Shown here: positions 329 through 33,093 of the stretch, one piece after another
Layout of the letters: every line of letters starts with the position of its first letter
Numbering within the stretch: the first letter of the stretch is position 1
NCBI RefSeq assembly: GCF_900184935.1
Contig: NZ_FXYE01000001.1
Span: 1,364,001 to 1,428,000 of the forward strand
From: Actibacterium lipolyticum
Lineage (GTDB): Bacteria; Pseudomonadota; Alphaproteobacteria; Rhodobacterales; Rhodobacteraceae
Direction of reading: 5' to 3'
DNA length: 64,000 nucleotides
Position numbers and translations under genes: made by a program
The notes under the pieces: generated by a model
What the model saw: the letters and a program-made list of their open reading frames with translations, nothing else
Database searches by the model: none
What the model was told of the DNA's origin: nothing

Positions 329-490
329 TCAACGCTTGGCGATCTTGAAGGCCAGATACAGCCCCAGACTGATGGCAAACAGCGCTGCGACCGAAATTTC
401 GGCACCGTGCGGGTGCAGGTGCGGCCCCCCATGGGCCAGCGCGGGGGATGCCAAAAGGGTGGCGGCGATTACGGCGGGCAGGCGGGTCAT
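329..490 (-). CDS. 53-residue exported His-containing single-pass peptide
   Basis: ATG at 490-488, stop at 331-329. The N-terminus MTRLPAVIAATLLASPALA is a classical signal peptide. Cleavage after ALA would leave a mature protein starting HGGPHLHPHGAE, followed by one membrane helix (about residues 31-47) and a basic end, FKIAKR. The ATG overlaps the stop of the upstream His-rich gene by 4 bp (ATGA), so it is translationally coupled and closes the guanidine operon. It resembles small Rhodobacteraceae proteins of the DUF6732 type and, loosely, the His motif at the N-terminus of HupE/UreJ nickel permeases. A role in periplasmic nickel binding or delivery is inference only. The signal peptide, conserved reading frame and coupling make it a real gene. 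Confidence 0.72.
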   Translation of the reverse strand: MTRLPAVIAATLLASPALAHGGPHLHPHGAEISVAALFAISLGLYLAFKIAKR

Positions 491-927
491 TTTTCAATCT
501 CCTGTTTGCGTTGATAAAGGAAGTCGCGGATATCCAGCGTCGATTTTTCATCCATCGAGACATAGATCAGCGACATGTTGGTGCGCTCGCGAACCATCTC
601 TCCGGGGAAGGGCAGATAGCTAAGCTCGCGTGATCCGAACGAGGGCGAGGCCGTACCGACCTGCCAATCGGTTTTCAGCTCTACATCGATCAGTTTCAGC
701 GCCTTTGCGCCATCCTTGGCAGGGCGTTCAAACGGGACCCCGGCAAGTTTCAGATAGCTCGTCTTATCACTTGCCTGAATGAAGCCGTCGATGAACTGGG
801 TCGCCAGCACCTGAAGGTCCGCCGCATCGTCGTGGTGGTGCATGTGGCTGTGCAGGTGGTCGCCATGGGCGTGGTTATGCCCTTCGCCGTGATGATGGTG
901 GTGGTCGTGTGGGTGATCATGTGGCAT
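487..927 (-). CDS. His-rich cytosolic protein coupled to guanidine hydrolase (candidate nickel chaperone)
   Basis: Start chosen at ATG 927-925, which begins the His-rich segment and overlaps the gdmH stop by 11 bp. A longer frame to 1035 would run antiparallel to nothing useful and lies inside gdmH. The 146-residue protein opens with a 34-residue stretch holding 17 histidines plus several Asp/Glu, then a globular part of about 110 residues (core QFIDGFIQASDKTSYLKLAG, later ELSYLPFPGEMVRERTNMSL) and a charged C-terminus. There is no signal peptide, P-loop or Cys-rich zinc site, so it is neither HypB nor HypA. His-rich segments of this kind in UreE, HypB and SlyD bind nickel. Position directly after gdmH and before a second His peptide suggests nickel storage or delivery to GdmH. 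I do not recognise the C-terminal domain. Confidence 0.75.
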   Translation of the reverse strand: MPHDHPHDHHHHHGEGHNHAHGDHLHSHMHHHDDAADLQVLATQFIDGFIQASDKTSYLKLAGVPFERPAKDGAKALKLIDVELKTDWQVGTASPSFGSRELSYLPFPGEMVRERTNMSLIYVSMDEKSTLDIRDFLYQRKQEIEK

Positions 928-2173
928 TGGACCACCGCTTTCCGCTGAATTCGCCGTGTGGGATCGAAACTGGCTTATCGATAAACTTCTTGTGCGCGCC
1001 CAGTTTGCCGTTGGACACCAGCGCGCCCAACACATCCACGATCACGCGGGTGCCCATCAACGCCGTAATGTCGGACGTGTCATAGGGCGGCGAAACCTCT
1101 ACCAGCTCCATCCCACAGATACCTTCGGCCGCGATGCCAGAGGCAAGCGCCAAAGCCTCGCGCGGAAGGAAGCCGCCGGGTTCAGGCCAGCCGGTACCGG
1201 GGACAAAGCCGCAATCGATACTGTCGATGTCGAAGGACATATAGACCATGTCAACCCCATCCCACGCCATTTCCAGCGCCATTTCGATGGTCTTATCGAC
1301 GCCCATCTTTTCCATATCGCCCATGGTGATGATGTTGGTTTCACGCTCGCGCGCAACCTTCACCGCCTCGCGCGGGACCTGCCAGCCACCGATGCCGATT
1401 TGGACAAGGTTCTTGGCTGGCACGTTGGGAAGGTTGGTGGAATGGAACCACGGGGTGGTATGCATCCGTTCATCCAGATCCTTTTCCTGAATGTCGGCGT
1501 GGCGGTCGAAATGCACGATGCCGATTTTCTTTGATGTGCATTGTGCGATGCCACGCACGCATGGGAACCCGATGGAATGATCGCCGCCAATCATGATCGG
1601 CAGAGAGCCAGAGGAGAATACATGGCTGACCGCTCGGCTGATCTGGTCAAAGCTCTTTTCGATATTGGCCGGGATGGTGAACACATCGCCCGCGTCGCAC
1701 AGCGTCATCTGTTCGCGCAGGTCCACGCCGATTTCATAGTTATAGGGCGTGTAGAGGGCGGAGATTTTGCGCAGCCCTTGCGGGCCAAACCGCGTGCCGG
1801 GGCGGTAGGTCGTGCCGCCATCAAAGGGGATGCCCAGAACGGTGGCATCATAGTCTGCGACCTCCAACACATCTTCGGCATAGGGGGCTTTCAGGAAGGT
1901 GTTGATGCCCGCGAAATGCGGAAGCTCTCCACGCGCGAAGGTGGGGATCGATTTATCCTCGATGCTTTCGGCACCCGTCAGGCCCATACGCAGGGCCCAA
2001 CGGCGTTCTTCGTCCCAGCGGCCTTCGGGCAGGTCGGCCTCTTTCTGCATGGCGCGCCAGCCTGCGAGCTTTGTCAGGTCTGGGTGGTGGCCGCGCTTTT
2101 CGCGGTTTGCCTGCTGTGCCAGTTGGTCAACCGGGTGGTGCGAGCGTGAGCGCCCGCGAGGTTCGTTAAACAT
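917..2173 (-). CDS. gdmH: Ureohydrolase, probable Ni-dependent guanidine hydrolase
   Basis: A 418-residue protein of the arginase/agmatinase superfamily. The two-metal site motifs are all present: GGDHSIG, DRHAD (in HFDRHADIQEKD) and SFDIDSID. Compared with ordinary agmatinases of about 300-320 residues it has an N-terminal extension of roughly 70 residues, as in the cyanobacterial Ni-dependent guanidine hydrolases. Those enzymes split guanidine into urea and ammonia. The decisive evidence is context: the operon is headed by a guanidine-I riboswitch and carries an ABC transporter of the urea/guanidine-carboxylase-associated type. The ATG (2173-2171) overlaps the ATPase stop by 8 bp, and the stop overlaps the His-rich gene. 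Agmatinase or another guanidino-acid hydrolase remains the alternative. No hypA/hypB-like maturation genes are visible here. Confidence 0.85.
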   Translation of the reverse strand: MFNEPRGRSRSHHPVDQLAQQANREKRGHHPDLTKLAGWRAMQKEADLPEGRWDEERRWALRMGLTGAESIEDKSIPTFARGELPHFAGINTFLKAPYAEDVLEVADYDATVLGIPFDGGTTYRPGTRFGPQGLRKISALYTPYNYEIGVDLREQMTLCDAGDVFTIPANIEKSFDQISRAVSHVFSSGSLPIMIGGDHSIGFPCVRGIAQCTSKKIGIVHFDRHADIQEKDLDERMHTTPWFHSTNLPNVPAKNLVQIGIGGWQVPREAVKVARERETNIITMGDMEKMGVDKTIEMALEMAWDGVDMVYMSFDIDSIDCGFVPGTGWPEPGGFLPREALALASGIAAEGICGMELVEVSPPYDTSDITALMGTRVIVDVLGALVSNGKLGAHKKFIDKPVSIPHGEFSGKRWSNAT

Positions 2174-2921
2174 CCTCTGCCTCCTTCAGATGTTGAAACG
2201 GGATGCCGCCATCGCGGGCATCAAAATCGTAGGTGATTGTCGCGCCATAGGCGCCGGGGTCGTGCGGGTCCCAACGGGGCTTGTCGAAGACCAGAACTCG
2301 GTCGCCCAGCTTGAACCCTTCTTCTAGGTCGTGGGTGACCATGAAGACGGTCATGCCGGTTTCGGCTTTCAGCTCCATCAGGAATTCGTGCATCGCGATC
2401 CGGGTGCCGGGGTCCAGCGCGCCGAAAGGTTCATCCAGCAACAACACCCGTGGTTTCGCGGCCATGGCTTGGCCGATGGCAAGGCGTTGTTGCATCCCGC
2501 CCGACAGGCTTGCCGGGTATTGGTCGGCGACGTGGTTCAGCCCGATCCGGGCCAGCATTGCATCGGCGCGTTCCAGCCCCGCGCGCCGGGCGGCACCCCG
2601 CAGGCGGCCCCAGCGCGTGGCGAAACCTTCGCCCGCCAGAATGTTGTTGCGGACTGTCAGATGCGGAAAGACCGAATAGCGCTGGAACACCACGCCGCGT
2701 TCGCGGTTCGGTTCAGACGCGGGTTCACCACCATCGATACGGATTTCACCACGCACCGGGGTTTCTTCGGCCAGCAGCATCCGCAGGAAGGTGGATTTGC
2801 CACAGCCCGACGCCCCGACGATAGAGATGAATTCGCCCTCATCGACCTCGACGTTCACACGTTCAAGGATCGAACGGTCGCCGTAGGATTGCCAGACATC
2901 GGTGACGGAAACAAAGCTCAT
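2166..2921 (-). CDS. ABC transporter ATP-binding protein, guanidine operon
   Basis: Start set at ATG 2921 (MSFVSVTDVWQSYG), which overlaps the permease stop by 4 bp (ATGA); the longer frame upstream is antisense-like and lies inside the permease. The 251-residue protein has Walker A GASGCGKST, Q-loop region VVFQRYSVFPHL, signature LSGGMQQR, Walker B VLLLDEPF and the switch histidine in MVTHD. It belongs to the nitrate/sulfonate/taurine class of importer ATPases. It would energise uptake through the adjacent permease and binding protein. The three transporter genes and gdmH are translationally coupled, as expected for a dedicated uptake and breakdown unit. Confidence 0.9.
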   Translation of the reverse strand: MSFVSVTDVWQSYGDRSILERVNVEVDEGEFISIVGASGCGKSTFLRMLLAEETPVRGEIRIDGGEPASEPNRERGVVFQRYSVFPHLTVRNNILAGEGFATRWGRLRGAARRAGLERADAMLARIGLNHVADQYPASLSGGMQQRLAIGQAMAAKPRVLLLDEPFGALDPGTRIAMHEFLMELKAETGMTVFMVTHDLEEGFKLGDRVLVFDKPRWDPHDPGAYGATITYDFDARDGGIPFQHLKEAEDV

Positions 2922-3730
2922 AGCCCGGCCTCCATCCATGGGAATGATTTGCGTGACAGGGTCTTCAACGCCCAGTCGATCAGGAATGCCAGCAGGGTAA
3001 TCCAGATGACGTAGGTTAGGATCACGTCCATCGCCAAATACCGGCGGACCAGGAAAATGCGATAGCCAAGGCCAACGTCTGAGGCGACAGCCTCGGCCGC
3101 GATCAGAAACAGCCATGCAGAGCCGAGAGAGAGCCGGATGTTGGAGATCAACCGGGGCAGGATTTGTGGCAAGGCGACGCGCAAGGCGATGACCCCGCTG
3201 GATGCGCCCAAAGTTTGCGCCTTGACGATTTGTTCATGCGGGATGTCCAGCACGCGCTGCGCCAGATCGCGGGTCATGATGGGTGTGATGCCGATGACGA
3301 TCAGCACCACCTTGGACAGTTCCCCAAGGCCGAAGACGATGAACAGGATCGGCAGCAGGGCCAGCGGCGGTACCATCGACAGCACGGCCACAAAACCCGC
3401 GAATGTCTTGCGGGCATAGGGGAACAACCCAATCAACATCCCCAACGAAAGAGAGATGGCCGCCGCAATGCCGACCCCGCCCAACAACCGTGTCAGCGAG
3501 GCCCAGGTATCTTTCCACAGCAGGATATCACCGGTGCGTCGGTCCCCTTGGGTGAACAGGCGAACAGCCGTATCCCAAATGGTCGAAGGGGCGGGCAGCA
3601 GTTTGTCCTGTGGGTTCACGCTTAGCCGCATTTCGGATCCGACCGCATAGGCGATCACAACCAAAACAAACGGCAGCGCGGCAAGAAACACGCCCGTCGA
3701 ACGATCAGGTTTTCGATTGATATGCCGCAT
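2918..3730 (-). CDS. ABC transporter permease, guanidine operon
   Basis: A 270-residue integral membrane protein of the BPD_transp_1 family. It has an N-terminal membrane helix (about residues 15-32), a periplasmic stretch, and further helices around 80-230. The EAA-type cytoplasmic loop is seen near 'IPHEQIVKAQTLGASSGVIALRVALPQILPRL'. It resembles NitT/TauT-type permeases. It lies 50 bp after the binding protein gene and overlaps the ATPase gene by 4 bp. The substrate, guanidine or a close derivative, is inferred from the riboswitch upstream and gdmH downstream. Confidence 0.88.
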   Translation of the reverse strand: MRHINRKPDRSTGVFLAALPFVLVVIAYAVGSEMRLSVNPQDKLLPAPSTIWDTAVRLFTQGDRRTGDILLWKDTWASLTRLLGGVGIAAAISLSLGMLIGLFPYARKTFAGFVAVLSMVPPLALLPILFIVFGLGELSKVVLIVIGITPIMTRDLAQRVLDIPHEQIVKAQTLGASSGVIALRVALPQILPRLISNIRLSLGSAWLFLIAAEAVASDVGLGYRIFLVRRYLAMDVILTYVIWITLLAFLIDWALKTLSRKSFPWMEAGL

Positions 3731-3780
3731 GAACGCCCCCGCGAAAGCGTGGGCACGGCAAACGCCGCGCCCGTTTGCCG

Positions 3781-4848
3781 TTACAGCGCGCCGTCAGCGG
3801 CCATCTGCATATAGGTGGCGTCAAAGCGGAATTTGACGTTGCCAGCATCACCCGAGGTTGACCCATCAGGGTAGGCGATGCCGACGAAATCAGCACTTGG
3901 CGCGCCTTCGCCCAAGATGCCTTTGTCGAACAGGAATTCGGCGACAGAGGTCATCGTTGCAGGCAATTCGCCAGATGCGGCTTGGGCCACGGCGGCGGCA
4001 GGGTCAAAGAACATCTCGGTCGCTGCAAGCTGCGCTTTGTATCCGTCAAGGTCGGTGCCCGATGCTTCGGCCATTGCCGTCAACGCGGCCTCGTCACCGG
4101 CCGCCATAAGCGACATTACCTCGTACCATGCGCCAACCACGGCTTTTCCGAAGGCCGGATTGTCGGCCAGCGTTTCGGTGTTCACCACCATCAGGTCAAG
4201 GATTTCACCGGGTATCATAGAGCTGTCAAAGACGTTGGTCGCGTCTGGGTTTGACCCAAGGATTTCCGACACCAACGGGTTCCATGTCACCACGGCCTCT
4301 ACATCGCCAGACGCATAGGCCGCGATCATATCCGCGTCGGATGTGTTGATGACGCCGTCCAGATCACCTTCGGACAGGTCGACAGTATCCAAACCGCGCG
4401 CAAGCAGATAGTGAGACACCGACAGTTCGACCAAGTTCACCGGCTTGCCATTCAGATCGGCCAGCGTGCCTTCGCCCTTGAGGATAACGGCGTCGTTGCC
4501 GTTGGAGTAATCGCCGATGATCAGCGCGGTCGTGTCAACGCCGCCCCCGGACGGGATCGAAAGCGTGTCCATATTCGTGGCCGACACCCCATCAAACGCG
4601 CCGGCTGTGTATTGGTTGATGGATTCCACATAGTCGTTGATTTGCACGATATCGACAGTGATGCCGTATTTGTCGGCCCACTTGTCCATGATGCCGCTGT
4701 CTTCCAAATACCCCCACGGCATCCAGCCGACATAGATGGACCACGCAAGTTTGAAGTCTGTCTTTTCCTCGGCCATGGCAGGTGTAAGGGCCGAGGCAAG
4801 AACGCCCAGCGAGAGCGCCGAAGCGGTAAGAAGCTTTGATTTAGTCAT
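3781..4848 (-). CDS. ABC transporter substrate-binding protein, putative guanidine/urea type
   Basis: A 355-residue exported protein with signal peptide MTKSKLLTASALSLGVLASALTPAMA (n-region with two Lys, cleavage after AMA). The mature part (DFKLAWSIYVGWMPWGYLEDSG...) matches my memory of the binding proteins encoded beside urea/guanidine carboxylase genes, a NitT/TauT-like family annotated as 'putative urea ABC transporter'. It is the first gene of the operon and directly follows the guanidine-I riboswitch and its terminator hairpin, so its expression should be induced by guanidine. It would capture guanidine in the periplasm and pass it to the permease. Confidence 0.88.
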   Translation of the reverse strand: MTKSKLLTASALSLGVLASALTPAMAEEKTDFKLAWSIYVGWMPWGYLEDSGIMDKWADKYGITVDIVQINDYVESINQYTAGAFDGVSATNMDTLSIPSGGGVDTTALIIGDYSNGNDAVILKGEGTLADLNGKPVNLVELSVSHYLLARGLDTVDLSEGDLDGVINTSDADMIAAYASGDVEAVVTWNPLVSEILGSNPDATNVFDSSMIPGEILDLMVVNTETLADNPAFGKAVVGAWYEVMSLMAAGDEAALTAMAEASGTDLDGYKAQLAATEMFFDPAAAVAQAASGELPATMTSVAEFLFDKGILGEGAPSADFVGIAYPDGSTSGDAGNVKFRFDATYMQMAADGAL

Positions 4849-4908
4849 GACTTTCCCCGTTCAAGCGTCCCGCCGATTTTTGGTCGTGGTTTACGCCCCG
4901 CTGGCGGA

Positions 4909-4940
4909 ACAAAGAGAAAAGGCGCGGGCAAAACCTGCGC
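4909..4940 (-). terminator. Rho-independent terminator downstream of riboswitch aptamer
   Basis: On the - strand, GCGCAGG and CCCGCGC form a 7-position stem with one A-C mismatch around a TTTTG loop (4940-4922), followed by TTTTCTCTTTGT. It begins right at the 3' edge of the guanidine aptamer and precedes the binding protein ATG by about 60 bases. This is the expected geometry for a riboswitch that permits read-through when ligand is bound. Confidence 0.65.
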
Positions 4941-5055
4941 AGTAATCTCCCGGGATTTTGGCCCGCCGTGTGCCCGCGCGGAATTTGCCACGTGGGTGAA
5001 GCTTCTTGGACCAGACCTGCCGCATGGGGCAGCGGAACCCTAAGCTTCCTGCGCC
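4941..5055 (-). ncRNA. Guanidine-I (ykkC) riboswitch
   Basis: The three conserved blocks of the ykkC/guanidine-I aptamer appear in order on the - strand: GCTTAGGGTTCCG (about 5044-5032), CTGGTCCAAGA (about 5017-5007) and ACACGGCGGG..TCCCGGGAGA (about 4971-4946). A variable hairpin, CTGCC/GGCAG, lies between the first two blocks. The aptamer binds free guanidinium. Here it leads the ABC-gdmH operon and is followed at once by a terminator-like hairpin, so guanidine should switch the operon on. An open reading frame that crosses this element has no support and is not a gene. Confidence 0.93.
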
Positions 5056-5059
5056 TTTG

Positions 5060-5089
5060 ATTGGACTTTCGGAACGGTCTTTGCGTCAA
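5060..5089 (-). promoter_or_regulatory. Candidate sigma-70 promoter of the guanidine operon
   Basis: On the - strand a good -35 box TTGACG (5089-5084) is followed after 18 bases by a weak -10-like TCCAAT (5065-5060). Transcription would start just before the riboswitch aptamer. The -10 match is poor, so this is tentative. Confidence 0.35.
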
Positions 5090-5199
5090 CAGGGCCGTCT
5101 TGGTTGGTGCGGGGCGGGCGGTGAATGGCTAAAAAATACGCACGAATTCGCGAAGTTGCCTAAGATGAGATCAACCAAGCGGTAAAAACAGGGGCCGAG

Positions 5200-6036
5200 T
5201 TAGCCTACTTCGCGTGTTGAAACGGCGAACAGTGTGTCGCCCTGAACCGGCGGCGTGCCGCGATACATGCGGGCGGTTTCAAAGCTGGGGGTGAACCCGT
5301 GTTCGGTCAGGCGCTGCGCGAATTCGGGCTGGTTGGACGGCAAGTCAATGCTTGCCCGATCAACACCAACGGCCCGCCCGGCGGCTGACATCAGGGCACA
5401 GGCCGCATCGACGTTGTCCGCGATGATGGGCCCGATTTTGCAGCCATCGTGACACTGCCGCGCAGTGGCGAAACCTTTGATTTCGCCACTGACCTCATAC
5501 ACCACGGTTTTGCGGGTGGGCGTGCCCATGATCCAGCCAGACAAGAAGCTGGGCCGTAAGTATCCGTTGGCGATGCCGTCCAACTGCGCGATGGTCGCAA
5601 TATCGTTGCTCAGATCAATGTCACGCACGCTGTCGATGTTGGTTTCGGGCAGGGGGCCATCAAAGCGCGTCGTTGTGCCGGTTCTAACAAAACCGGACCG
5701 GGCATAGTTGCTTTGCTGTTCAGCCACGCCATCCAATCCGATGCAGCGGTCCCCAGCGTGGGCAATGGCATGTTGCCAAAGGTCGTACCCAATGCCCTTG
5801 CCGCGATGCGCGGGCAAACACAGGTAAAGACCCAGAAACGACATTTCATCATTGTGGTTCACAACCGAAATACCGGCGACCATTTCTCCGTTCTCTTTGG
5901 CCACAAAGAACCCTTCGCCATCGGCCCCTAGAAACGCGGCGGCATCGTCCAGCCCGGGGTTCCATCCTTCGGCGGCGGCCCATTTAAGCATCGTCTCAAC
6001 ATCGGTGAAGGTCGCGGTGTGGAACGTCACGGTCAT
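5200..6036 (-). CDS. Tandem GNAT-type N-acetyltransferase
   Basis: A 278-residue protein with an N-terminal GNAT domain. The acetyl-CoA binding loop is seen as LPAHRGKGIGYDLW (about residues 76-89). The C-terminal half (about 140-278) looks like the second GNAT-like domain of YitH-type proteins (Acetyltransf_18). The substrate is unknown. Its ATG overlaps the stop of the GntR regulator gene by 4 bp, so both are made from one transcript. Together they stand divergent to a polyamine-type ABC operon, which hints that the acetyltransferase acts on a compound related to that transporter's substrate. Confidence 0.8.
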   Translation of the reverse strand: MTVTFHTATFTDVETMLKWAAAEGWNPGLDDAAAFLGADGEGFFVAKENGEMVAGISVVNHNDEMSFLGLYLCLPAHRGKGIGYDLWQHAIAHAGDRCIGLDGVAEQQSNYARSGFVRTGTTTRFDGPLPETNIDSVRDIDLSNDIATIAQLDGIANGYLRPSFLSGWIMGTPTRKTVVYEVSGEIKGFATARQCHDGCKIGPIIADNVDAACALMSAAGRAVGVDRASIDLPSNQPEFAQRLTEHGFTPSFETARMYRGTPPVQGDTLFAVSTREVG

Positions 6037-6719
6037 TTGCGAAGCGCCTCGTGCAGGGAAGATGGGACCGATTTTCGCGATCTAAGGTCAAGTGATGTGA
6101 CCAGATCAAGCAGGTGGCTTTTCATCAGCTCTTCGGCCAAGTCCCCGTCGCGATCGCGGAACGCCTCTATCAGGGCATGGTGGGCATGGCTTTCGCACAG
6201 CGCCGCGCGACGTTGCCAATAAAGCGCGATGATCAGCGAGGAGCGAGAGATCAACTGATTGATCAGATCGGCAATGGTTTTCTGATCGGCGATCCGCGCG
6301 ATTTCGATGTGGAATAGGCCGGAAAGATACAAGGCACGCCCGCTTTCGCCATCGTCAATCGCCGCGTGTTCAGCATCTATATGTGCCTGCAACGCGGTGA
6401 TGTCTGCCTCTGTCATGCGTTCAGCTGCGGATCGGGCGGTACGTGGTTCAAGAAGTGCGCGGGCCTCAAACACCTCACGGGCTTCGGCCACCGTTGGCTG
6501 GGCGACAAACGCGCCGCGGTTGCGTTTCAGTTCGATAAGGCGGTTGTGGGCAAGGCTTTGCAGGGCCGCCCGCACGATTGTGCGGCTGACGCGGTAAACA
6601 TCTGCCAGTTCATCTTCGCCCAGTTTCATGCCGGGGGGCAGGCGATGTTCATGGATCGCTTGTTCCAACGCCGCAGCAACCGTTTCGGCCGTACCTGTTT
6701 TTACCTGCATCTTATTCAT
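6033..6719 (-). CDS. GntR/FadR-family transcriptional regulator (FCD type)
   Basis: Start set at ATG 6719 because AGGAG lies six bases upstream; TTG at 6725 and GTG at 6722 are open but poorly spaced. The 228-residue protein has an N-terminal winged HTH (GEDELADVYRVSRTIVRAALQSLAHNRL) and an all-helical FCD ligand domain, with metal/ligand residues in the pattern of 'LYLSGLFHIEIAR' and 'ESHAHHALIEAF'. It is divergent from the ABC operon at 6930. A perfect palindrome in the shared intergenic region is a likely binding site. It probably represses both operons until its ligand is present. Confidence 0.87.
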   Translation of the reverse strand: MNKMQVKTGTAETVAAALEQAIHEHRLPPGMKLGEDELADVYRVSRTIVRAALQSLAHNRLIELKRNRGAFVAQPTVAEAREVFEARALLEPRTARSAAERMTEADITALQAHIDAEHAAIDDGESGRALYLSGLFHIEIARIADQKTIADLINQLISRSSLIIALYWQRRAALCESHAHHALIEAFRDRDGDLAEELMKSHLLDLVTSLDLRSRKSVPSSLHEALRK

Positions 6720-6797
6720 CACCAACTCCTGCCGTTGATTCTGCTTTGGCCGGACGGGATCGGCAAGTCGTGGGCTTCGTTAATGATAAGTGATCAG

Positions 6798-6809
6798 ATT
6801 GTATACAAT
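6798..6809. promoter_or_regulatory. Candidate GntR operator palindrome
   Basis: ATTGTATACAAT is a perfect 12-bp palindrome in the divergent region between the GntR gene (6719) and the ABC ATPase gene (6930). Its TTGTATACAA core fits the usual FCD-type GntR operator style. It is well placed to control both directions. Confidence 0.6.
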
Positions 6810-6929
6810 ATTGTGGCTAAAATTGCGCACAGCATTGCTGCGGACGCACAAACTTCGGGCAATCTGTGAAAATGGCAGGGGGAAAGCATCAAAACACTGC
6901 CCTTAACGGGAAATTCTAATCGAACCTGA

Positions 6930-7928
6930 ATGCAGCAAGCACATGGGGTGGGAATGCGAACAGGTTACGATCTTGAATTGGTTCACCTTACCAAACGCTA
7001 CGGGGACACCGTGGCGGTGCGGGATTTGAACTATGTGTTTAGCGCGGGCAGCTATGTCTGCCTTTTGGGGCCGTCGGGATGCGGGAAATCGTCAACCCTG
7101 CGGATGATTGCCGGGCACGAAAGCGTTTCGGACGGGTCCATTGTCTTGGACGGTCAGGATGTGTCGTACCTGCCACCGGCGAAACGCGGCACAGCGATGA
7201 TGTTCCAAAGTTATGCGCTGTTTCCGCATCTGACAGTGCGCGACAACGTTGGCTTTTCGCTTCGCATGAAAGGGGTCGATAAGCCAACGCGCGACGCCAA
7301 AGCGAACGAGTTGCTAGAGCTGGTGGATATGGGCGAATACGCCGACCGTCTGCCAGCGCAGCTTTCCGGTGGGCAACAGCAGCGCGTCGCCTTGGCGCGT
7401 GCGCTGATCACGGAACCCAAGGTTTTGTTGCTGGATGAGCCGCTTTCGGCGCTGGACCCGTTCCTGCGTGTTCGCATGCGGTCAGAGTTGAAGCGCCTTC
7501 AGCGTGAACTTGGAATTACCTTCATCCATGTCACCCACGGCCAAGACGAAGCTTTGGCTTTGGCTGATCAGATGGTGGTGATGAACAACGCCGTGATCGA
7601 ACAAGCCGGCCCCGCGCGCGAGGTGTTCAATGCCCCCCGAACCGAATTTGTGGCCCGCTTTATGGGGGGGCACAACGTCATCTCGTTCAATGGGGCCAAG
7701 GTTGCGTTGCGAGCGGATGAGGTACGCCTTGGGGCCACAGGTTTGGCGGCCACGGTTGCAGGCGTTGAATATCAGGGCGCGCATGTGGCCCTGACGGCCA
7801 TGACAGAGGCGGGGGAAGAAGTGCTGGCACTGGTCCCCGAAGCCAAGTTTTTCAATTCACCAAAAAATCCGGGTGACGCGGTCAACCTTGCCTGGGACGA
7901 GGGGCGGTTGCACCGCCTCCAAGCTTAA
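6930..7928 (+). CDS. Polyamine-type ABC transporter ATP-binding protein
   Basis: A 332-residue ATPase of the PotA class. It has Walker [11 protein letters not shown]-loop MMFQSYALFPHL, signature LSGGQQQR, Walker B VLLLDEPLSALDP, and a C-terminal TOBE-type domain (about residues 250-332). ATG 6930 has no clear ribosome-binding site; ATG 6954 (MRTGYDLEL) is an alternative. It is the first gene of a five-gene operon with binding protein, two permeases and a racemase-like enzyme. Substrate is not clear. The binding protein is of the spermidine/putrescine class, a family that also carries other cationic compounds. Confidence 0.88.
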   Translation: MQQAHGVGMRTGYDLELVHLTKRYGDTVAVRDLNYVFSAGSYVCLLGPSGCGKSSTLRMIAGHESVSDGSIVLDGQDVSYLPPAKRGTAMMFQSYALFPHLTVRDNVGFSLRMKGVDKPTRDAKANELLELVDMGEYADRLPAQLSGGQQQRVALARALITEPKVLLLDEPLSALDPFLRVRMRSELKRLQRELGITFIHVTHGQDEALALADQMVVMNNAVIEQAGPAREVFNAPRTEFVARFMGGHNVISFNGAKVALRADEVRLGATGLAATVAGVEYQGAHVALTAMTEAGEEVLALVPEAKFFNSPKNPGDAVNLAWDEGRLHRLQA

Positions 7929-7956
7929 TCAACCACGAACAATAGGGAATATTACA

Positions 7957-9222
7957 ATGTCCAAAATGCGTTACAGCCGCCGTGCGATCCTGAAAGGCGG
8001 CGCAGCAGCCGCAGCGGCATCCACACTGTCTGCCCCAATGATTTGGGCGCAGGAAATCAAAGATATCACACTACGCCAGTTCGGCACCGGGGTTTCGAAC
8101 CTGAACGAGGTCGCCGCAAAGGTTAAGGAAGACCTTGGCTTTTCGCTGGAAATGACTGCGCTGGATTCCGACAGCGTAACCCAACGCGCGGCAACACAGC
8201 CTGACAGTTTTGACATCGCCGATATCGAATACTGGATCTGTAAAAAGGTCTGGCCGACCGGCAACTTGCAGGCGATGGATACCAGCAAGATCAAGAACTA
8301 TGACAAGATCGTTGGCATCTTCCGTTCCGGCAAACTGACACCTGAAAGTGAGATCGCACAGGGCACCGCGCCACACAGCGTTGGTTTCGTTGATGGGCCG
8401 GGCGCCACCAAGTTTGCCTCTGAAGAGACCGGTTGGATGACCCTGATCCCAACCATCTATAACGCCGATACGCTGGGCATCCGTCCCGACTTGATCGGTC
8501 GTCCGATCAACAACTGGTCCGAACTGCTGAACCCCGAATTCAAGGGCAAGGCGTCGATCCTTGATATTTCGTCGATCGGGATCATGGATATGGCGATGGT
8601 CTGTGAATCCATGGGCGAAATTCAGTATGCCGACAAAGGCAACATGACCAAGGAAGAGATCGACGCGACCTTCGCGATCTTTACCGAAGCAAAGAAAAAC
8701 GGCCAGTTCCGCGCCTTCTGGAAGTCATTCGATGAAAGCGTGAACCTTATGGCCTCGGGCGAGGTGGTCATTCAGTCGATGTGGTCGCCTGCGATTACGG
8801 CCGTAAAATCGCGCGGAATTCCATGCGTCTATCAACCGCTGGAAGAAGGCTATCGCAGCTGGGGTGGGGGCATTGGTCTGTCGAAATCCCTGTCGGGGAT
8901 GGAGCTGGACGCGGCCTATGAATACATCAACTGGTATCTGGACGGCTGGGTCGGCGGGTTCCTGATGCGTCAGGGTTATTATTCGGCTGTGCCTGAAACC
9001 TCCAAAAACTACATGTCAGAGAACGAGTGGGGCTATTGGTTCGAGGGCAAAGAGGCCAGCGACGAAATCACTAACCCATTCGGCGACGTTTTGGCCAAGG
9101 CAGGCGAAACCCGTGATGGCGGTTCGTTCTATGACCGGATGGGCGCGGTTGCCTGTTGGAACGCTGTCATGGACGAAAACCAATACATGGTTCGCAAATG
9201 GAACGAGTTCATCGCTGCGTGA
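7957..9222 (+). CDS. Extracellular binding protein, PotD-like, Tat-exported
   Basis: ATG 7957 chosen over the longer frame because AGGGA lies upstream and the protein then starts with a clean export signal. Residues 5-30 hold a twin-arginine motif, SRRAILKGG, then an Ala-rich hydrophobic segment ending near MIWAQE. So it is probably exported folded by the Tat system. The 421-residue protein is of the extracellular solute-binding family 1 (spermidine/putrescine-like). It is followed by a strong hairpin before the first permease gene. The natural ligand is unknown; the racemase gene at the end of the operon hints at an amino acid or hydantoin-like compound. Confidence 0.85.
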   Translation: MSKMRYSRRAILKGGAAAAAASTLSAPMIWAQEIKDITLRQFGTGVSNLNEVAAKVKEDLGFSLEMTALDSDSVTQRAATQPDSFDIADIEYWICKKVWPTGNLQAMDTSKIKNYDKIVGIFRSGKLTPESEIAQGTAPHSVGFVDGPGATKFASEETGWMTLIPTIYNADTLGIRPDLIGRPINNWSELLNPEFKGKASILDISSIGIMDMAMVCESMGEIQYADKGNMTKEEIDATFAIFTEAKKNGQFRAFWKSFDESVNLMASGEVVIQSMWSPAITAVKSRGIPCVYQPLEEGYRSWGGGIGLSKSLSGMELDAAYEYINWYLDGWVGGFLMRQGYYSAVPETSKNYMSENEWGYWFEGKEASDEITNPFGDVLAKAGETRDGGSFYDRMGAVACWNAVMDENQYMVRKWNEFIAA

Positions 9223-32589: not shown

Positions 32590-32968
32590 AAATCAGTCCG
32601 CGGCGGCGTGATTGAGCCAGCCGATAGGACGTTCAAGGAAATGGTTGGGAAGTGCAGGCTTCTGTTGCCAGGTGCCTGCGAACCCCGCCTTACGCTGCTA
32701 GGCGAAAGGGCTTAAGATTTCGATAGATCGAACTGCTTACGCAGCCAGAGCCATCGGAGCTTTGTTGTCATTTGCAACTAGCTTAAACGGACCGATATCG
32801 GTGGTACCTCACCGAGACAAAGCTAACCCCTTTAGACGTTCGTCGATCCTATTTCGACCCCATGATCCCCAAATGAAGGATGTTTGGTGGAGTCGCCGGG
32901 TACCGCCCCCGGGTCCGATCCGCTTATTACGAGCGCGTTTATGTCCATAGTCCCGAAGGACAACTTTT
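32590..32968 (-). ncRNA. ssrA: tmRNA, circularly permuted two-piece (ends approximate)
   Basis: On the - strand the acceptor piece comes first and ends ...GGCGACTCCACCA with CCA at 32887-32885. After a 23-base loop the coding piece starts GGGGTCGAAATAGGATCGACG at 32861. GGGGTCG (32861-32855) pairs with CGACTCC (32895-32889) to form the tRNA-like acceptor stem. The coding piece holds the tag frame. This order is the permuted alphaproteobacterial form, processed into two RNA chains that rescue stalled ribosomes. The 5' end near 32968 and 3' end near 32590 are estimates. An open frame reading + through 32762-32950 is an artefact of this RNA. Confidence 0.92.
32737..32775 (-). other. tmRNA proteolysis-tag reading frame
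   Basis: GCA AAT GAC AAC starts the frame, which encodes ANDNKAPMALAA and ends in TAA (32739-32737). With the alanine from charged tmRNA the added tag would be AANDNKAPMALAA. AANDN at the start and ALAA at the end match alphaproteobacterial tags recognised by SspB and ClpX. Confidence 0.92.
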
Positions 32969-33093
32969 ATATATGAGGAGGGCTGCTAAGGTTCAAGCAT
33001 TCACAGAAAAACATTTGGAAAAGGAAAGGTATTCCAGAAGTGTGTGAAAGCCTTCTTTCGTCTATGATCAAGGCATAGATTGGTATTTATACA

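Follow-up and report, generated by a model that had tools for sequence, protein, structure and literature searches.

How would a guanidine hydrolase obtain its nickel when no HypA/HypB-type helper genes accompany it? The question is raised by a 64,000-nucleotide stretch of the Actibacterium lipolyticum genome (Rhodobacteraceae; NZ_FXYE01000001.1, positions 1,364,001 to 1,428,000), hereafter the window, which carries near its start a predicted operon for guanidine sensing, import and hydrolysis. The hydrolase gene (gdmH, product P0003) overlaps with the gene for a small histidine-rich protein, P0002. Across the union of two genome samples, P0002 was found in 47/48 alphaproteobacterial genomes with GdmH, always on the contig of gdmH, and HypA and HypB were both under cut-off in most of these genomes. 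The reading we prefer, to which we give a probability of about 0.6, is that of a guanidine-inducible nitrogen-scavenging operon in which P0002 would deliver or buffer nickel for GdmH in the place of the cyanobacterial helpers GhaA and GhaB.

A predicted guanidine operon in the window

The operon runs along the minus strand from 5054 to 329 of the window, in a genome of 3.88 Mb that is 99.99% complete. The riboswitch comes first, followed by P0006, P0005, P0004, P0003, P0002 and P0001:

4945..5054, minus strand: guanidine-I riboswitch aptamer (Rfam RF00442, 81.5 bits against a gathering score of 63, E 5.8e-13, model positions 1-107)
3781..4848, minus strand: P0006, substrate-binding protein of an ATP-binding cassette (ABC) importer, 355 residues (TIGR03427, 512.8 bits, cut-off 333.9)
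2918..3730, minus strand: P0005, ABC importer permease, 270 residues (PF00528, BPD_transp_1, 70.5 bits)
2166..2921, minus strand: P0004, ABC importer ATPase, 251 residues (PF00005, ABC_tran, 116.5 bits)
917..2173, minus strand: P0003, GdmH-type guanidine hydrolase, 418 residues (arginase family PF00491, 257.4 bits)
487..927, minus strand: P0002, histidine-rich protein, 146 residues (no Pfam or NCBIfam family)
329..490, minus strand: P0001, small protein, 53 residues (no Pfam or NCBIfam family)

The preliminary description of this DNA had a guanidine-I riboswitch, an ABC importer and the remaining genes on a single strand, joined by overlaps of 4-11 bp. Riboswitch and six genes are indeed all on the minus strand, and the importer is borne out by TIGR03427 (over its cut-off; the model is named 'putative urea ABC transporter substrate-binding protein'), PF00528 and PF00005. 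The overlaps were confirmed for the last five genes, at 4, 8, 11 and 4 bp; the first junction (P0006/P0005, 3781/3730) is a 50-bp gap. The start of P0002 at 927 is our choice, after the MPHD start common to the Rhodobacterales members, and the longer frame extends to 1035.

An RF00442 match over the gathering score, at the head of guanidine genes, agrees with the putative guanidine-I riboswitch as first described. A riboswitch of this class heads 23/23 alphaproteobacterial operons scanned (the window, 20 genome loci and two plasmid loci), and because of this recurrence the operon is taken to be more than a chance assembly. Judged by its sequence the operon is real, and constitutes a predicted set for guanidine sensing, import and hydrolysis. 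The terminator-like hairpin of the preliminary description found no support: a formal terminator scan of 4840-5220 gave 0 matches, the leader (4960-4849) folded no better than shuffles (z -0.74; 41/200 shuffles at least as good), and homologues followed no consistent pattern, a loose search finding a stem and T-rich tail in 4/22 homologous leaders. The aptamer strand at 4979-4972 and the segment 4929-4922 are perfectly complementary, and a U-rich stretch follows the latter; this is a single case, with a comparable arrangement in just the 4/22 leaders mentioned above, and may be due to chance.

P0003 is a GdmH-type hydrolase

P0003 matched Synechocystis GdmH (7esr/7oi1; E 1.3e-163 and 548 bits for 7esr) and the Nitrospira inopinata guanidinase (9fek; E 3.8e-160, 536.6 bits), structures identified as such in PMC11410670, far ahead of the next-best sequence, a guanidinobutyrase (E 3.3e-50, 174.4 bits). 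Where the two align, P0003 and the N. inopinata enzyme share 63% of their residues. In that enzyme Thr105, His222, Trp313 and Glu344 are named as important for guanidine, and the Thr/Trp pair is stated to be the guanidine-specificity pair (PMC11410670). P0003 T122, H238, W329 and E359 align with these four residues, in a mapping for which the fit suggested that the numbering of the chain and that of the paper differ by two residues. Residues H199, D223, H225, D227, D315 and D317, identical in 6/6 aligned sequences, are presumably the binuclear metal ligands of the arginase family. P0003 is thus GdmH-type by sequence, and its relatives suggest that it would depend on nickel. The N-terminal extension noted earlier is present (residue 40 of P0003 lines up with 7esr residue 17) and was already known from the N. 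inopinata enzyme (PMC11410670).

A tree of GdmH (FastTree; 61 sequences thinned from 145, plus one outgroup) places the 20 alphaproteobacterial sequences in one clade with support 1.0; the cyanobacterial clade adjoins it with weak support (0.73). In the input to this tree L141 and L162 are the same gene, and L140 was dropped for its short match. Urease, which would be expected to act on the urea released, is encoded elsewhere in the same genome (alpha subunit at C2:1209283-1210980), and urease alpha was over cut-off in 47/48 GdmH carriers, the 48th having a fragment that starts at a contig end.

The genome also encodes a second ureohydrolase, 31% identical to P0003 and ~50 kb away (G000:C2:1313507-1314481, L002). 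In one annotated Limimaricola variabilis example, the names given are 'agmatinase family protein' for the enzyme and 'hypothetical protein' for P0002.

P0002 accompanies gdmH

Linkage between P0002 and gdmH was followed in an order sample (390 genomes) and a phylum sample (398 genomes), which are draws of one genome per species and overlap in part. In the order sample GdmH (E 1e-80) was found in 44 genomes and a P0002 profile match also in 44; 43 of these matches were strong (E 3.5e-54 or better), and all 43 lay in GdmH genomes on the gdmH contig. In the phylum sample GdmH was found in seven genomes and a strong P0002 match in the same seven. One genome, G012, gave a weak match in both samples and is taken up in the Discussion. 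The only GdmH genome lacking P0002 is G291, in which gdmH is cut short by the end of a contig of 4,981 bases. The gap between the gdmH and P0002 matches is at most 397 bases in 47/47 genomes and at most 100 in 42/47.

Measured from the gdmH stop in 34 loci, the P0002 start overlaps by 11 bases in 19 and by 1 base in three, follows within 20 bases in eight, and lies 119-384 bases downstream in four (L018, L021, L033 and L034). P0002 is kept in 34/34 of these loci, including one without the importer. The permease P0005 has a homologue in 33 of them; in the exception, L033/L037, gdmH comes immediately after the riboswitch (8744-8855), no homologue of the importer binding protein or permease was found in 18 kb, and an ATPase frame of 35% identity occurs 5 kb off on the opposite strand.

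Plasmids allowed hydrolase and importer to be separated. In a plasmid collection the importer binding protein had homologues in 235 records, GdmH was in 11 and P0002 in seven, all seven also carrying GdmH; of the records with the binding protein, at least 224 have no GdmH, and P0002 was found in none of these. Sinorhizobium fredii NGR234, a plant symbiont, has both gdmH and P0002 on its plasmid pNGR234b. The search used a single sequence, and did reach distant Sinorhizobium members. P0002 therefore tracks the hydrolase, not the importer, and a role as an importer component is rejected. The remaining four GdmH plasmids are actinobacterial, and P0002 was not found in these.

In one plasmid locus, from Rubrobacter indicoceani (L056, 6795-14403), gdmH shares a strand with a guanidine-I riboswitch and a sodium:solute symporter; a formamidase on the opposite strand comes next, then urease genes on the gdmH strand. 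The locus represents another importer type beside urease, with no HypA/HypB gene in the annotation shown.

HypA/HypB-type genes and the three arrangements

Over-cut-off HypB matches were present in 10/48 alphaproteobacterial GdmH genomes and HypA in the same 10, with hypA/hypB either on a different contig from gdmH or at a distance of at least ~45 kb. In 38/48 both were under cut-off, and the sub-cut-off matches of the HypB search in GdmH carriers are of the UreG kind. No GhaA- or GhaB-like open reading frame (ORF) turned up in the leading 16 kb of the window, nor in 20 related neighbourhoods that each cover 13-18 kb. HypA/HypB in the gdmH neighbourhood is rejected for the window, the 20 related loci and the 48 genomes.

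Cyanobacteria present a different picture. GdmH was found in 26/146 cyanobacterial genomes, and GhaA- and GhaB-like genes, sought with a query pair from locus L141 that scores as HypA and HypB over curated cut-offs, lie in the 1.5-kb flanks of gdmH in 23/26 (two GhaB matches being partial); the other three have HypB over cut-off 2.1-3.0 kb away, so that a HypB-type gene is within ~3 kb of gdmH in 26/26. P0002 was found in 0/26 of these genomes in a search for which the window's own genome served as positive control.

A collection of contigs supplied 80 further GdmH loci: 23 from Nitrospira and relatives, two from Chloroflexi, one from Entotheonella, one cyanobacterial and 53 from Actinomycetota. 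As the best 80 of 552 for the N. inopinata sequence they do not form a representative sample, and some of the contigs are short. The 80 loci yielded no P0002-like ORF (best E 2), and P0002 was not found in 24 of their genomes searched whole, a search without positive control. A GhaA-like ORF occurred in the cyanobacterium only, and a GhaB-like ORF in the cyanobacterium and as 16 weak matches, all over the UreG cut-off and under that of HypB. Six histidine-rich ORFs within 3 kb of gdmH in these loci look like wrong-frame translations and were rejected.

From these distributions three arrangements emerge among the loci seen: GhaA/GhaB in cyanobacteria, P0002 in Alphaproteobacteria, and neither nearby in the rest. 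The earlier statement that GdmH usually travels with HypA/HypB describes the sampled cyanobacteria well and fails for the 79 non-cyanobacterial loci of the contig collection, mostly Actinomycetota and Nitrospira. The replacement of these helpers by two unrelated histidine-rich genes is half right, as HypA/HypB-like genes are not in the operon and histidine-rich P0002 is, but one such gene is involved rather than two. The suggested variant system with its own gene order does differ in arrangement; it is not a peculiarity of one genome but the rule in 47/48 alphaproteobacterial GdmH genomes.

P0002 matches no Pfam or NCBIfam family

P0002 consists of a histidine-rich N-terminal tail and a conserved core of ~105 residues. 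In the window protein 17 histidines lie within residues 1-33 and none after, and the core contains neither cysteine nor histidine. Across 12 aligned members, H15, H17, N18, H19, H26 and H28 of the tail are invariant or nearly so; the core is conserved along its whole length and the tail is variable.

UreE and HypB are small accessory proteins that, like P0002, contain a histidine-rich stretch presumed to bind nickel, but P0002 has no UreE, HypA or HypB domain match. Searches with 12 members gave no Pfam match up to E 1, and NCBIfam returned only three chance-level matches (E 0.12-0.78) to histidine-rich models; for UreE in particular there was no Pfam match, and one of 12 members met the NCBIfam model at chance level (E 0.78). 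The P0002 profile against the PDB gave one chance match (E 1.4), and viral contigs held no relative. A CxxC motif is absent from 34/34 members, with no HypA domain match, and a P-loop is likewise absent from 34/34, with no HypB/UreG family match; P0002 is therefore neither HypB nor HypA. In positive controls the cyanobacterial GhaA-like protein scored as HypA and the GhaB-like protein as HypB. A search of open-access main text for a histidine-rich GdmH partner gave no paper among the matches listed.

Among 30 Rhodobacterales-group members the ratio of nonsynonymous to synonymous substitution rates (dN/dS) had a median of 0.13 and a maximum of 0.33 (362 usable pairs of 435); the median dS of 1.05 is near saturation, which makes the ratio only a rough guide. 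By its sequence pattern, the P0002 gene looks real and under constraint.

P0001 and the surroundings of the operon

P0001 has four histidines in 53 residues, so the second histidine-rich gene of the preliminary description does not hold up as P0002 does. To the eye it has a signal-peptide-like start, an HGGPHLHPHG motif and one hydrophobic stretch, features that its relatives have too, the motif there being of HPHG type; it may act as a metal-binding peptide of the periplasm. ORFs like P0001 could be made out in 16/34 loci (15 by tblastn, L005 by pattern) and in 0/4 loci outside the order. P0001 as an equal partner of P0002 is rejected on this count. It is optional and not a necessary part of the arrangement.

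Upstream of the riboswitch (window 5200-9222) a GNAT acetyltransferase and a GntR/FCD regulator lie on the minus strand with a 4-bp overlap; beyond this pair, plus-strand frames resemble by eye an ABC ATPase and binding protein. The GNAT frame was matched in 0/20 other loci and the regulator in 1/20. On the other side (L201, 12322-15267, up to window 266), the operon is faced by the end of a convergent ABC permease frame, and past that frame are others that by eye are NosR-like and ApbE-like. Further into the window, at 32651-33000 on the minus strand, is an alphaproteobacterial permuted transfer-messenger RNA (RF01849, 307 bits), which is ordinary for Alphaproteobacteria.

Discussion

We propose that guanidinium would bind the riboswitch and so switch the operon on; the ABC importer would take up guanidine, GdmH would convert it to urea and ammonium, and the urease encoded elsewhere would complete urea breakdown. 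P0002, whose frame overlaps the end of gdmH, would supply or buffer Ni2+ for the metal centre of GdmH, with the histidine-rich N-terminal tail as metal carrier and the core docking on the enzyme. In this capacity it would stand in for the cyanobacterial HypA/HypB-type pair GhaA/GhaB. Such helpers matter in related systems: GhaA/GhaB are reported to be required for activation of GdmH, as is coexpression of HypA/HypB for metformin hydrolase (PMC11399263, PMC11271267), and a metAB knockout did not grow on metformin (PMC11271267).

Individual parts of the operon have counterparts elsewhere, and ureohydrolase genes under guanidine riboswitches are often in operons with hypA, hypB and ABC importer genes (PMC8390497). 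The Synechocystis operon (sll1077, GhaA/GhaB and an ABC importer) likewise joins a guanidine-I riboswitch to an ABC importer (PMC12186494, PMC8390497), and its GdmH has the same specificity residues and metal ligands as P0003; unlike it, the window operon is without GhaA/GhaB and has P0002 beside gdmH. The N. inopinata locus shares the guanidine-I riboswitch and a GdmH with N-terminal extension, and has no regional HypA/HypB-type genes according to PMC11410670, but it has an APC permease in place of the ABC importer. No P0002-like gene was found in the 23 Nitrospira-type loci or in six of their genomes searched whole. The metformin and dimethylguanidine hydrolase operons (MefH, DmgH, MetCaCb) also pair nickel ureohydrolases with dedicated helper genes (PMC11399263, PMC11271267); unlike the window operon, they have two ureohydrolase subunits and helpers of the hypA/hypB type. 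Guanidine carboxylase operons have a guanidine riboswitch and ABC importer as the window operon does, but they follow a route of ATP-using carboxylase, deaminase and allophanate hydrolase, with no GdmH-type hydrolase in the account given (PMC12186494).

Several observations weigh against nickel delivery by P0002. Histidine-rich tails bind Zn, Co and Cu too; the tail varies from six to 28 histidines across 33 members measured; and the core has no invariant histidine or cysteine in the 12 aligned members. No homology or structure connects P0002 with any metallochaperone, and a single-sequence AlphaFold model (predicted local distance difference test score 39.4, predicted template modelling score 0.21) is too poor for use. 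The window's genome carries hypA/hypB at C2:32305-33428, which might serve GdmH, and G012 has a partial P0002 match (E 4.9e-4, 34 positions) in a genome without GdmH. The 79 non-cyanobacterial loci with neither P0002 nor GhaA nearby suggest that GdmH may need neither of them. In E. coli extracts the activity of metformin hydrolase was not significantly affected by coexpressed MetAB (PMC11271267), and expression in E. coli with no chaperones yielded active, partly nickel-loaded N. inopinata enzyme (PMC11410670); both results argue against an absolute need for P0002.

Of the other explanations for P0002, the one that survives best, though we consider it unlikely, makes it a structural or regulatory subunit, or a stabiliser, of GdmH, with the histidine tail incidental. 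A core conserved throughout beside a variable tail, down to 6-8 histidines in some members, is what a binding interface would lead one to expect, and metformin hydrolase is an example of a ureohydrolase that requires a second subunit (PMC11399263, PMC11271267). Unlike P0002, however, that second subunit is itself a ureohydrolase; N. inopinata guanidinase forms a homohexamer and is described as similar to Synechocystis GdmH (PMC11410670); and the possible metal-binding tail occupies the position that metal helpers hold in cyanobacteria.

Somewhat less probable still is a general role in storing or detoxifying nickel or zinc, with P0002 simply co-induced and GdmH loaded by the chaperones of urease or hydrogenase. 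Such chaperones could be at hand, given the near-universal urease of the carriers, the UreG-kind matches among them and hypA/hypB in 10/48. A storage protein should nevertheless occur without GdmH, and the partial match in G012 is the only one outside carriers in the two overlapping samples. That P0002 is a passenger with no role in guanidine use is very improbable: operons are inherited as blocks and the alphaproteobacterial enzymes form one clade, but P0002 bears signs of purifying selection and persists in every locus measured, with or without importer and across spacers of up to 384 bp, while P0001 of the same operon is recognised in fewer than half.

Nickel delivery or buffering by P0002 remains the reading we favour. 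Its strongest form, that P0002 is the first representative of a new family of GTPase-independent nickel chaperones, each a single protein dedicated to guanidine hydrolase, replacing the HypA/HypB-type pair in Alphaproteobacteria, we hold tentatively, at slightly less than even odds.

For the comammox guanidinase, nickel acquisition where chaperones were not found has been called unclear (PMC11410670). In another lineage, P0002 now offers a specific candidate gene for nickel loading, with a clean phylogenetic pattern among the genomes compared. If the proposal is true, P0002 would represent a new route for loading nickel into an enzyme, and its gene could be used as a marker of guanidine hydrolysis among Rhodobacterales and rhizobia.

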